DNA from: Clostridia bacterium
GTDB lineage: Bacteria > Bacillota_A > Clostridia > Christensenellales > Aristaeellaceae
NCBI GenBank assembly: GCA_017481065.1
Contig: JAFUPT010000003.1
Coordinates: forward strand, 1 to 10,352
Reading direction: 5' to 3'
Length of the DNA stretch: 10,352 nucleotides
Shown here: positions 4,061 to 10,097 of the stretch, piece by piece
Layout: each line of letters starts with the position of its first letter
Numbering within the stretch: position 1 is the stretch's first letter
The notes under the pieces: generated by a model
Database searches by the model: none
Seen by the model: only the letters and a program-made list of their open reading frames with translations
Told to the model about the DNA's origin: nothing
Program-made: the position numbers and the translations under genes

Positions 4061-4789
4061 ATGAAATACGACAACTGTTATACGGGTATTTTCCTCTCCC
4101 GTCCCAACCGCTTCATTGCCATCGTGGAAATCGATGGGAAGGAAGAACGGGTGCATGTGAAGAACACCGGCAGGTGCAGGGAGCTGCTGGAGCCGGGAAA
4201 CACCGTTTATCTGGAAAAGAGCGGAAATCCGGAGAGGAAGACCGCATATGATCTGATTGCGGTGGAGAAGAAGGTTCCCGGCGGGACGCGGCTGGTGAAC
4301 ATGGATTCCATGGCCCCGAATCTGGCGGCGAAGGAATGGCTGGAAAGCGGCGGGGCAGGGGAGATCGAAAAGCTGCGCGCCGAGGTGAAAATCGGCGATT
4401 CCCGCTTTGATTTTGCCGGGGAGCAGGATGGGAGAAGGGTGATCATCGAGGTGAAGGGCTGCACGCTGGAGGAAAACGGCGTGGCCAGCTTCCCGGATGC
4501 GCCCACGGAGCGCGGCGTGAAGCATGTGCGCGGTCTTGCAGAACTTGCAAAGCAGGGCTGCCGCTGCATCGTGCTGATCGTGATCCAGATGAAGGGCGTG
4601 CATGAATTCCGGCCCAACTGGCGCACCCAGCCGGAGTTCGGCGCGGCGCTGGTCGAAGCGGAAAATGCCGGGGTGGAGATCATCGCCATGGATTGCGCCG
4701 TGCGGCCCGGAATTGTGGAAATTGATGCGCCCGTGCCCGTGATTTTGCAGCAATTCAAAAATAATATTGACGAAAGTGCACAAATATGA
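4061..4789 (+). CDS. sfsA: SfsA family DNA/RNA nuclease
   Basis: A 242-residue SfsA family protein, the usual length. Members were first linked to sugar fermentation regulation in E. coli and were later described as nucleases with a PD-(D/E)XK-like core. Recognisable conserved blocks: RVHVKNTGRCRELL (about 30-43), SMAPNLAA (83-90), SRFDF (114-118), IIEVKGCTL (128-136), FPDAPTERGVKH (144-155) and the C-terminal block around FRPNWRTQPEFG (183-194). The acidic residue of SRFDF and the E/K of EVKG are the likely metal-site residues. ATG 4061 follows a modest AGGA (4047-4050). The 54 nt before it hold a small CAAAT/ATTTG hairpin and no clear promoter. The last codons overlap a strong promoter for the next transcript. 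Confidence 0.95.
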   Translation: MKYDNCYTGIFLSRPNRFIAIVEIDGKEERVHVKNTGRCRELLEPGNTVYLEKSGNPERKTAYDLIAVEKKVPGGTRLVNMDSMAPNLAAKEWLESGGAGEIEKLRAEVKIGDSRFDFAGEQDGRRVIIEVKGCTLEENGVASFPDAPTERGVKHVRGLAELAKQGCRCIVLIVIQMKGVHEFRPNWRTQPEFGAALVEAENAGVEIIAMDCAVRPGIVEIDAPVPVILQQFKNNIDESAQI

Positions 4790-4795
4790 TATAAT
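4767..4795 (+). promoter_or_regulatory. Near-consensus sigma-A promoter in the sfsA tail
   Basis: TTGACG (4767-4772), a 17-bp spacer, and TATAAT (4790-4795). Transcription should start at about 4801-4803, giving a leader of about 127 nt before the FAD oxidoreductase. It overlaps the last seven sense codons and the stop codon of sfsA. It is the best -35/-10 pair in the window besides that at 9578. Confidence 0.8.
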
Positions 4796-4800
4796 AAGGT

Positions 4801-4900
4801 ATGGGTCTTGACGGGCCCATGCCATATCATATTGTGTGCAAAGGGGTCGTCAGGAGACTGGCGATCTATATTTTTGCGTGCATCGGCGCATCCGGCGCCG
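4801..4900 (+). promoter_or_regulatory. Structured leader with terminator-like hairpin (candidate attenuator)
   Basis: Three hairpins follow the promoter. P1 is ATGGGTC/GGCCCAT (4801-4807/4814-4820) with loop TTGACG. P2 is GGTCGTCAG/CTGGCGATC (4845-4853/4858-4866), nine pairs with two G-T wobbles, capped by GAGA (a GNRA loop) and followed by TATATTTTTG (4867-4876), which looks like an intrinsic terminator. P3 is CGGCGC/GCGCCG (4884-4889/4895-4900). The P1 loop with its next base (4808-4814) can pair with the left arm of P2 (4847-4853), which would prevent P2 forming. A plain sfsA terminator is the simplest alternative for P2. It matches no riboswitch class that I recognise. Confidence 0.45.
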
Positions 4901-4926
4901 TTGCCGCCATGCTTAAAGGAGAATGA
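4819..4926 (+). CDS. Possible 35-residue small membrane protein or leader peptide
   Basis: An open frame of 35 codons runs from ATG 4819 through the leader hairpins to TGA 4924-4926, two bases before the chosen start of the FAD oxidoreductase. The product starts MPYHIVCKGVVRR and continues with a hydrophobic stretch, LAIYIFACIGASGAVAAML, that could span the membrane with the positive charges on the cytoplasmic side. An in-frame ATG at 4801 would give 41 residues but coincides with the predicted transcription start. There is no good ribosome binding site for either start, which is the main argument against it. If it is translated, ribosomes would cross the terminator-like hairpin and the stop would be coupled to the next start. 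Confidence 0.25.
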   Translation: MPYHIVCKGVVRRLAIYIFACIGASGAVAAMLKGE

Positions 4927-4928
4927 AA

Positions 4929-6329
4929 ATGAGAACCAACGTAGTCATCATCGGCGCTGGTCCGGCCGGCATCTTTACCGCACTTGAAATGATCCGCAAG
5001 GGCAGCGATAAGAAGATCATCATCTGCGAAAAGGGCGCGGCCATCGAAAACCGCCGCTGCCCGAAGTCCAAGACCAAGCAGTGCGTGAATTGCAAGCCCT
5101 ATTGCCATATCACCACCGGCTTCTCCGGCGCGGGCGCATTCTCCGACGGTAAGCTGAGCCTGTCCTACGAGGTTGGCGGCGACCTGCCCACCCTCATCGG
5201 CGAGGACAAGGCCCAGGAAACCATCAACTACACCGATTCCATCTACCTCGAGTTCGGCGCGGATACCCACATCGAGGGCATCGGCAACACCGAGGAAGTG
5301 AAGCAGATTCGTTCCCGCGCGATCCAGGCCGGCCTCAAGCTGGTGGATTGCCCCATCCGCCATCTCGGCACCGAGAAGGCACAGGATATCTACTATGCCA
5401 TCGAGCAGTACCTGTTGAACCACGGCGTGGAGATCATCTTCGGCTGCGAATGCCAGGATCTGATCCTCGAGGACGGCGTGTGCAAGGGCGTTCAGGTGAT
5501 CGTGAAGGGCGAGGAGAAGGAAATCTTCGCCGACCGCACTGTTGTGGCCACCGGCCGCCGCGGCGCGGACTGGCTGGAGCGCATCTGCGCCGAGCACAAC
5601 ATCGCCCACCAGCCCGGCACCGTGGATATCGGCGTGCGCGTGGAATGCCGCAACGAAATCATGGAAAAGGTAAACGAGGTGCTCTACGAATCCAAGCTGA
5701 TCGGCTATCCCAAGCCCTTCAAGAACAAGGTGCGCACCTTCTGCCAGAATCCCGGCGGCTTCGTGAGCCAGGAAAACTATGATAATAACCTCGCCGTTGT
5801 AAACGGCCATTCCTACAAGGACCTCAAGTCCAACAATACCAACCTGTCCATCCTCTGCAGCCACAATTTCTCCGTGCCCTTCAACCAGCCCATTGCCTAT
5901 GCACAGAAGGTTGGCGAGCTGACCAACATGCTGGGCGCGGGCCACATCCTGGTGCAGCGTTTCGGCGATATCCTGGATGGCAAGCGCACCTGGGCCAAGG
6001 AGCTGGCGCAGTCCAACGTGCGGCCCACCCTGCCGGACGCCGTCGCGGGCGATATCACCGCCGCCATGCCCTACCGCGCCATGACCAACATCATCAATTT
6101 CATCCAGGCCATGGACCATGTGGTGCCGGGCTTTGCGAGCTACGAAACCCTGCTCTATTCCCCGGAGCTGAAATTCTATTCCAACCGCGTGAAGATGGAT
6201 GAAAACTTCACCACCTCCATCAAGGGCCTGCACTGCCTGGGCGATTCCAGCGGCTGGACCCGCGGCCTTATGATGGCCAGCGTGATGGGCGTGCTGATGG
6301 GCCGCCAGATCGCGGAAGAGGAAGAGTAA
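4929..6329 (+). CDS. FAD-dependent oxidoreductase, COG2509 type
   Basis: A 466-residue NAD(P)/FAD-dependent oxidoreductase of the family often called uncharacterized FAD-dependent dehydrogenase; the substrate is unknown and the protein should be cytosolic. Residues 5-14 are the dinucleotide-binding VVIIGAGPAG. A cysteine group C44-x7-C52-x2-C55-x3-C59 precedes SGAGAFSDGKLSL (about 67-79). Later come VDIGVRVE (about 232-239) and VNGHSY (about 286-291), and the C-terminal FAD block LHCLGDSSGWTRGLMMASVMG (about 435-455). ATG 4929 is chosen because AAAGGAG (4915-4921) lies 7 nt before it; the upstream in-frame ATG 4923 leaves only 1 nt. The gene has no visible promoter downstream of the leader hairpins, so its expression should depend on reading through them. 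A strong terminator follows at 6379. Confidence 0.92.
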   Translation: MRTNVVIIGAGPAGIFTALEMIRKGSDKKIIICEKGAAIENRRCPKSKTKQCVNCKPYCHITTGFSGAGAFSDGKLSLSYEVGGDLPTLIGEDKAQETINYTDSIYLEFGADTHIEGIGNTEEVKQIRSRAIQAGLKLVDCPIRHLGTEKAQDIYYAIEQYLLNHGVEIIFGCECQDLILEDGVCKGVQVIVKGEEKEIFADRTVVATGRRGADWLERICAEHNIAHQPGTVDIGVRVECRNEIMEKVNEVLYESKLIGYPKPFKNKVRTFCQNPGGFVSQENYDNNLAVVNGHSYKDLKSNNTNLSILCSHNFSVPFNQPIAYAQKVGELTNMLGAGHILVQRFGDILDGKRTWAKELAQSNVRPTLPDAVAGDITAAMPYRAMTNIINFIQAMDHVVPGFASYETLLYSPELKFYSNRVKMDENFTTSIKGLHCLGDSSGWTRGLMMASVMGVLMGRQIAEEEE

Positions 6330-6378
6330 GTTCGCGCGAACGGATATAACTTCCCTGCAAACGCAGAGCTTACCATTT

Positions 6379-6412
6379 CCCCCTCCCGGATTCTCCCGGG
6401 AGGGGGGTTTTT
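6379..6412 (+). terminator. Intrinsic terminator of the FAD oxidoreductase gene
   Basis: CCCCCTCCCG (6379-6388) pairs with CGGGAGGGGG (6397-6406) around an 8-nt loop, then G and TTTTT (6408-6412). This is a very stable 10-bp G-C-rich stem with a T-tract, 50 nt after the stop codon. Confidence 0.9.
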
Positions 6413-10051: not shown

Positions 10052-10097
10052 AAGCCTCCGTATGGTTGCAATGAAGTGACCATACGGAGGCTTTTTC
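10052..10097 (+). terminator. Strong intrinsic terminator behind the metalloregulator
   Basis: Positions 10052-10066 (AAGCCTCCGTATGGT) pair perfectly with 10079-10093 around a 12-nt loop, and CTTTTTCG follows. At 15 bp it is the longest perfect stem in the window. It begins 44 nt after the regulator stop and may belong to the regulator or to the mobile DNA that follows. Confidence 0.85.

Follow-up and report, generated by a model that had tools for sequence, protein, structure and literature searches.

A candidate transcription attenuator in the leader of a COG2509-type FAD oxidoreductase gene

Attenuators that rely on a premature terminator occur before gene families in which 5' terminators are over-represented, and their sensing parts are diverse and fast-evolving (available text of Naville and Gautheret 2010, PMC2965389). 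Among the examples in that text is the vanR-leader of bacilli, which belongs to a flavin oxidoreductase gene; COG2509 is not seen there, and may be listed in the supplementary family table. Here, we describe the leader (positions 4796-4922) of a gene for a COG2509-type, flavin adenine dinucleotide (FAD)-dependent oxidoreductase, in a 10,352-nucleotide stretch of DNA from a gut Clostridia bacterium (contig JAFUPT010000003.1, hereafter the window). We consider it rather likely that this leader is a transcription attenuator of the oxidoreductase gene. It differs from the vanR-leader, which is a conserved element of bacilli (PMC2965389, same text).

The HMP-PP (thiS motif) riboswitch has a terminator hairpin that is part of its aptamer, an unusually conserved loop, and 400 representatives, according to the available text of PMC6478431. 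It resembles the window leader, as we propose the latter to act, in being short, in having a terminator hairpin with a conserved loop that takes part in an alternative and possibly pseudoknotted ON state, and in being ON by read-through (same text). Compared with that account (PMC6478431), the window leader has a separate stable hairpin that would supply the partner loop, and two copies are known rather than 400; moreover, it precedes an FAD oxidoreductase gene and not a thiamin gene. The window leader may work like the HMP-PP riboswitch, yet nothing assigns it to that class, and the thiS motif is not among the Rfam matches up to an expectation value (E) of 10, assuming that Rfam 15 holds a thiS model. 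In the preQ1-I and fluoride riboswitches, as in the fold proposed here, a small H-type pseudoknot competes with a terminator; the window leader differs from both in having no Rfam match.

The leader and its second copy

The features of the leader and of the gene it would control are as follows.

4767..4795, plus strand: sigma-70-type promoter TTGACG-17-TATAAT, overlapping the 3' end of the upstream gene sfsA (11/12 consensus matches)
4798..4823, plus strand: hairpin P1, GGUAUGGGUC UUGACG GGCCCAUGCC (10 pairs, folding at -18.9 kcal/mol)
4807..4814, plus strand: P1 loop segment CUUGACGG, candidate partner of the terminator left arm (8 pairs with 4847-4854)
4844..4876, plus strand: hairpin P2 with a GAGA loop and U-tract, predicted intrinsic terminator (10 pairs, -14.4 kcal/mol)
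4847..4854, plus strand: P2 left arm UCGUCAGG, common to the terminator and, by complementarity, the alternative pairing
4923..6329, plus strand: COG2509-type FAD-dependent oxidoreductase (Pyr_redox_2 / FAD-depend_C; Pfam PF07992 and PF21688)

The promoter boxes, TTGACG at 4767-4772 and TATAAT at 4790-4795, are separated by a 17 bp spacer with TG ahead of the -10 box. The sfsA reading frame ends at 4789, so its 3' end and the promoter overlap. From the position of the -10 box, transcription would be expected to start at about 4801-4803, within the left arm of P1. The P2 stem occupies 4844-4867, with a closing pair G4853-C4858 around the GAGA loop (4854-4857), and is followed by ATATTTTTG up to 4876; it thus has the form of an intrinsic terminator, a G+C-rich stem with a U-tract directly after it (tail ATATTTTT). 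Promoter, terminator, and gene, which starts at 4923, stand in the order of an attenuator, and no promoter with 7/12 matches or more follows the terminator in the window or in the second copy described below. The folding energy of 4767-4930 is 7.5 standard deviations below that of 200 dinucleotide shuffles, none of which was as low; part of this is due to the arms on either side of P1, which reach into the -10 box and are probably untranscribed. The Rfam 15 models, which include riboswitches, T-box, and other leaders, gave nothing at gathering level over the window or the second copy; over 4600-5100, relaxing the limit to E 10 gave six matches, the best at E 0.64, all of them far under their gathering scores and none plausible. 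A preliminary description of this DNA, made from the sequence alone, had named the near-consensus promoter, the terminator-like hairpin with a GNRA loop, the lack of another promoter before the gene, and the absence of a recognized RNA class, and in all of these points it was accurate.

The second copy lies in genome G111 (locus L093), the oxidoreductase of which is 93% identical to that of the window and the closest among the loci read. A covariance model made from the window leader alone found it at 55.5 bits (E 3.7e-12). The L093 leader consists of TTGACA-17-TATAAT (12/12) at the same promoter position, P1, P2 (11 pairs, -20.3 kcal/mol), and a short U-tract directly after the stem (tail TTTTATGC), and is followed by the gene; in both species, the unit precedes the start codon of the same gene by 33-55 nucleotides. 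An additional gene lies between sfsA and the leader in L093, and is missing from that place in the window. In a structural alignment of the two leaders, all 20 hairpin pairs stand: 14 are unchanged, six have one-sided compatible changes, and none is broken, whereas sliding the partners by 1-3 columns left only 24-44% of cells paired. All ten pairs of P1 are kept, two of them with one-sided changes. P2 likewise keeps its 10 pairs, with four compatible changes, all in the right arm; the left arm and loop are identical, a pattern that a second partner for the left arm would lead one to expect.

That partner could be the P1 loop. CUUGACGG and UCGUCAGG form eight pairs, including two G-U, and when six P1-loop bases were randomized, eight or more pairs arose in 0.17% of 20,000 trials. 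The preliminary description had drawn a mutually exclusive pairing of 4808-4814 with 4847-4853, which is correct and extends to 4807-4814 with 4847-4854. The seven loop bases 4807-4813 (CUUGACG) are identical in L093; the alternative pairing is possible in both species and nearly invariant, albeit in two sequences and with no compensatory change.

For the steps of the switch, we infer the following from the layout of the leader. Transcription would begin at about 4801-4803, and P1 would fold first, presenting its loop CUUGACG. As UCGUCAGG of P2 emerged from the polymerase, it could pair with that loop to form an H-type pseudoknot; P2 could then not close, and read-through would follow (ON). 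Were the right arm of P2 to win instead, the complete terminator and its U-tract would free a leader RNA of ~75 nucleotides (OFF). The terminator pairing (~-15 kcal/mol) is more stable than the alternative (~-8 kcal/mol), suggesting that OFF is the default and that the pseudoknot would need a stabilizing factor, such as a bound ligand or protein or the pace of transcription. A signal would decide whether capture of the terminator arm by the loop outlasted passage of the polymerase over the U-tract. The leader is probably an on-switch, in which pairing of the P1 loop blocks the terminator.

Terminators and riboswitches before COG2509 in relatives

A usable start was available at 173 COG2509 loci (157 after de-duplication), and 72 of the 157 had a promoter of at least 10/12 within 200 nucleotides; start codons were chosen by rule. 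A terminator-like hairpin was defined as one with an energy of -9 kcal/mol or below and a minimum of 5 T in the 8 nucleotides that follow, lying between the promoter and the start codon; the controls were other genes of the same loci. Leaders were grouped into classes by BLAST similarity and not by a tree, which leaves some dependence in all counts by class, and single linkage placed the tRNA-bearing leaders together with L187 and L189 in one class.

In a first count, terminator-like hairpins were found in 32 of the 72 strongly promoted COG2509 leaders and before 5 of 62 control genes (by class, 20/50 versus 5/59, p 1.7e-4; p 2e-3 to 4e-6 with other energy and length cut-offs), in a comparison that included the window and allowed the promoter to overlap upstream coding sequence for COG2509 and not for the controls. 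With an equal rule for both and the window and L093 excluded, the numbers are 30/70 versus 6/67, or 19/49 versus 6/63 by class (p 4e-4; two stricter rules gave p 1.3e-4 and 4e-5). Restricted further to leaders of 130 nucleotides or less, they become 20/56 versus 2/61, and 14/41 versus 2/57 by class (p 6e-5). In none of the 32 terminator-bearing leaders is the terminator followed by a promoter of at least 9/12; it lies a median of 31 nucleotides from the start codon, and three of the 32 hold a tRNA gene ahead of it. The terminator signals are mostly unrelated in sequence to the window leader. As a separate observation, L109-L112, L119, L121, and L122 form one leader class with a 12/12 promoter and a short hairpin (of the GGCAGAAATGCC type in most) and no terminator.

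A scan with Rfam at gathering level covered 100 COG2509 loci, among them at least two second copies (L141 of L007 and L175 of L027). The purine riboswitch RF00167 (cut-off 37) was found at four of the 100, 54-67 nucleotides before the gene, and these four loci stem from two separate family searches.

L187, 2947-3042, minus strand: RF00167 purine riboswitch, 49.5 bits
L189, 2954-3050, minus strand: RF00167 purine riboswitch, 45.8 bits
L193, 1328-1422, plus strand: RF00167 purine riboswitch, 38.6 bits
L157, 2946-3040, minus strand: RF00167 purine riboswitch, 40.8 bits

Judging by their core letters, these riboswitches may be of the guanine type. The window leader is like them in standing before a COG2509 gene, and differs in that neither it nor L093 matches RF00167. 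A literature search found no paper linking purine riboswitches with a COG2509-type FAD oxidoreductase, and the available text of PMC6429828 mentions neither an oxidoreductase nor FAD. Since the purine riboswitch stands at four relatives, a purine-linked signal is the only lead to what the window leader might sense. Because terminators are enriched before the gene and purine riboswitches lie at four loci, COG2509 appears to be a recurrent target of attenuation, of which the window has one lineage's version; this suggests that on/off control by RNA has been imposed on the enzyme repeatedly.

At four further loci (L075, L147, L156, and L168), Rfam places a tRNA gene 50-89 nucleotides before COG2509, with a terminator-like hairpin between the two in three of them; there, transcription of the gene may start at the promoter of the tRNA. 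Weaker Rfam matches at seven COG2509 loci were all implausible. S10-Clostridia leaders, a glmS ribozyme, and 6S RNA also occur near COG2509 (L061 371-441, L154 1271-1349, and L040 6409-6565, all on the minus strand, and L184 871-1059 on the plus strand).

Distribution and alternative explanations

The protein search of genome contigs confirmed at least 544 stretches, of which the best 80 loci were kept; of 300 genomes of one family, 248 held a relative of the enzyme, and the best 30 loci were read. Among these 80 and 30 loci, the same leader was seen in L093 only. The pattern GTCGTCAGGAGACTGRCG, with up to two mismatches, matched in G111 alone among 10 genomes; its only exact match in viral contigs falls within a long open frame of another contig. 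DNA searches of 16 genomes of relatives gave short matches only (best E 0.03), and BLAST against phage and plasmid sequences reached E 0.2 at best. By these searches, the element is lineage-specific and not a widespread class. The attenuator- or riboswitch-like reading of the preliminary description was borne out in part: order, hairpins, and possible pairing are kept in L093, and terminators are enriched before COG2509, while a sensing role of P1 is a prediction; conservation of the hairpins and of the alternative pairing in relatives holds in one genome besides the window.

Several observations weigh against attenuation by the proposed switch. There are no two-sided compensatory changes between the window and L093, and the terminator tail ATATTTTTG is interrupted. 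The eight other closest loci (L094-L101, 89-91% identical) are without the element, and one of them, L095, has a different leader with no terminator; in the genus-mates of G111, G047 and G086, an sfsA-like frame was read directly before the gene (L104 and L123). A leader model (R1) run over 308 genomes of the family gave 14 matches at E of 1 or less, only that in G111 (6.7e-10) being convincing, with the next at 0.009; a second model (R2) gave seven matches at E of 0.05 or less in 396 genomes of the order and no convincing copy besides G111 (3.1e-21), and the four of its six weaker matches that were aligned matched P2 and not P1. Such a terminator is absent from 40 of the 72 COG2509 leaders with a strong promoter, and at 85 of the 157 loci no promoter reaches 10/12 within the distance allowed. 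Finally, complementarity between the start segment and the terminator was only weakly above shuffles (combined z 2.5) in 25 of 35 terminator-bearing leaders, three tRNA-bearing leaders and seven with too short a start segment having been dropped and the rows not being independent; individually, the window reached p 0.045 and L093 p 0.085, and several leaders fell under their own shuffles. A general COG2509 rule, in which a shared start segment is complementary to the terminator loop, was accordingly rejected, the signal being weak. In several unrelated leaders (L153, L158, L179, L183, L194, L195, L019, and L051), complementarity to the loop or upper arm of the terminator is seen in the bases right after +1, with weak significance overall.

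Two further features of the leader enter into the alternatives.

4801..4926, plus strand: open reading frame (ORF) of 41 codons with ATG at or near the expected +1 and a stop overlapping the COG2509 start (ATGA), possibly by chance
4777..4842, no strand: near-palindrome around P1, the left arm of which contains the -10 box

The strongest rival is a fixed leak, in which P2 merely sets a constant lower output (or P1 guards the 5' end), without any sensing and with an incidental match of loop and arm. The recurrence of terminators in leaders that mostly differ in sequence fits fixed leakage through a weak terminator too, as do the tRNA genes at four relatives, with a terminator-like hairpin before COG2509 in three, and the finding that loop-arm complementarity is not general among COG2509 leaders. 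We nevertheless regard it as unlikely: the two species share an identical P1 loop and, in P2, an identical loop and whole left arm while other parts drift, and four relatives carry a known sensor, the purine riboswitch, at that place. An independent RNA of ~75 nucleotides acting elsewhere, with the flavoenzyme gene merely downstream, would account for a complete promoter-terminator unit, and the conserved loop and arm could bind its target; it is less likely again, since the unit stays at the same short distance before the same gene in both species with no other promoter, and a trans-acting RNA does not predict that this order recurs with unrelated sequences before one gene family. Even less probable is a leader-peptide attenuator, in which translation of the ORF through P2 would open the terminator, with AGG AGA in the P2 loop as the control point. 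The ORF spans both hairpins, and the frame is open in L093 (34 codons), where VVRRL and the ATGA overlap are kept despite indels, but its start codon is buried in P1 without a Shine-Dalgarno sequence. Of the 72 COG2509 leaders, 10 have an ORF that ends close to the gene start, versus 8.8 expected from shuffles, such that an upstream ORF as a general theme of these leaders was rejected, and no small protein among ~5.8 billion was found to share three 5-residue words with this one.

Control at the DNA level, the palindrome at the -10 box being an operator or the mark of face-to-face promoters and the hairpins a by-product, is very improbable. The arms flanking P1 pair in L093 too, with a different sequence, and the reverse strand holds a 9/12 promoter match at 4853-4826 (CTGACG-16-TATGAT), face-to-face with the forward promoter; since the left arm should not be transcribed from the latter, the palindrome may be a DNA site or the trace of a second, opposite promoter. 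DNA-level control leaves P2 with its U-tract, and the recurrence of terminators, unexplained. By eye, the face-to-face layout across window positions 4767-4853 was also seen in L093. Hardly credible at all is the plain alternative offered in the preliminary description, that the hairpin is the sfsA terminator and the promoter match is chance. The P2 stem does begin 55 nucleotides past the sfsA stop codon; in L093, however, another gene separates sfsA from the unit, and the promoter, there 12/12, and hairpins stay with the flavoenzyme gene, which argues that the hairpin belongs to the downstream gene.

The promoter, two hairpins, and U-tract before the oxidoreductase gene are real and more than chance. 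The attenuator reading draws on these, on the possible pairing, on conservation in the second species, on the lack of a later promoter, and on the enrichment of terminators at the gene, all taken from sequence; in it, the start site, termination, regulated read-through, direction and signal of the switch, and contact of P1 with P2 are predictions. A bolder proposal, which we hold to be doubtful, combines two parts: that the window leader is an undescribed small RNA sensor, a terminator-embedded pseudoknot, and that many different RNA sensors evolved in gut Oscillospirales-type bacteria for a regulon (perhaps purine or redox) that includes COG2509. If it were true, one gene would open onto a set of undescribed riboswitches or protein-dependent attenuators. 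Terminators that recur before an uncharacterized flavoenzyme family, together with the purine riboswitches of at least four relatives, provide a first lead on the physiology of the enzyme; the natural leaders, mostly without common sequence, form a panel that could be tested against one signal, and would illustrate how an attenuator at one gene can have its sensing part replaced again and again.

The enzyme and neighboring genes

The window holds helix-turn-helix (HTH), DUF3592, sfsA, COG2509-type FAD oxidoreductase, SDR, DUF1835/DUF3658, HD, and ArsR genes, which by reading are preceded by a pheT-like gene. The name COG2509 is that of the preliminary description; no search here gave it. Among solved structures, a single relative, 3nlc, was found. 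Strong terminator-like hairpins follow the oxidoreductase gene, at 6378-6407, and the ArsR-type gene, at 10052-10093.

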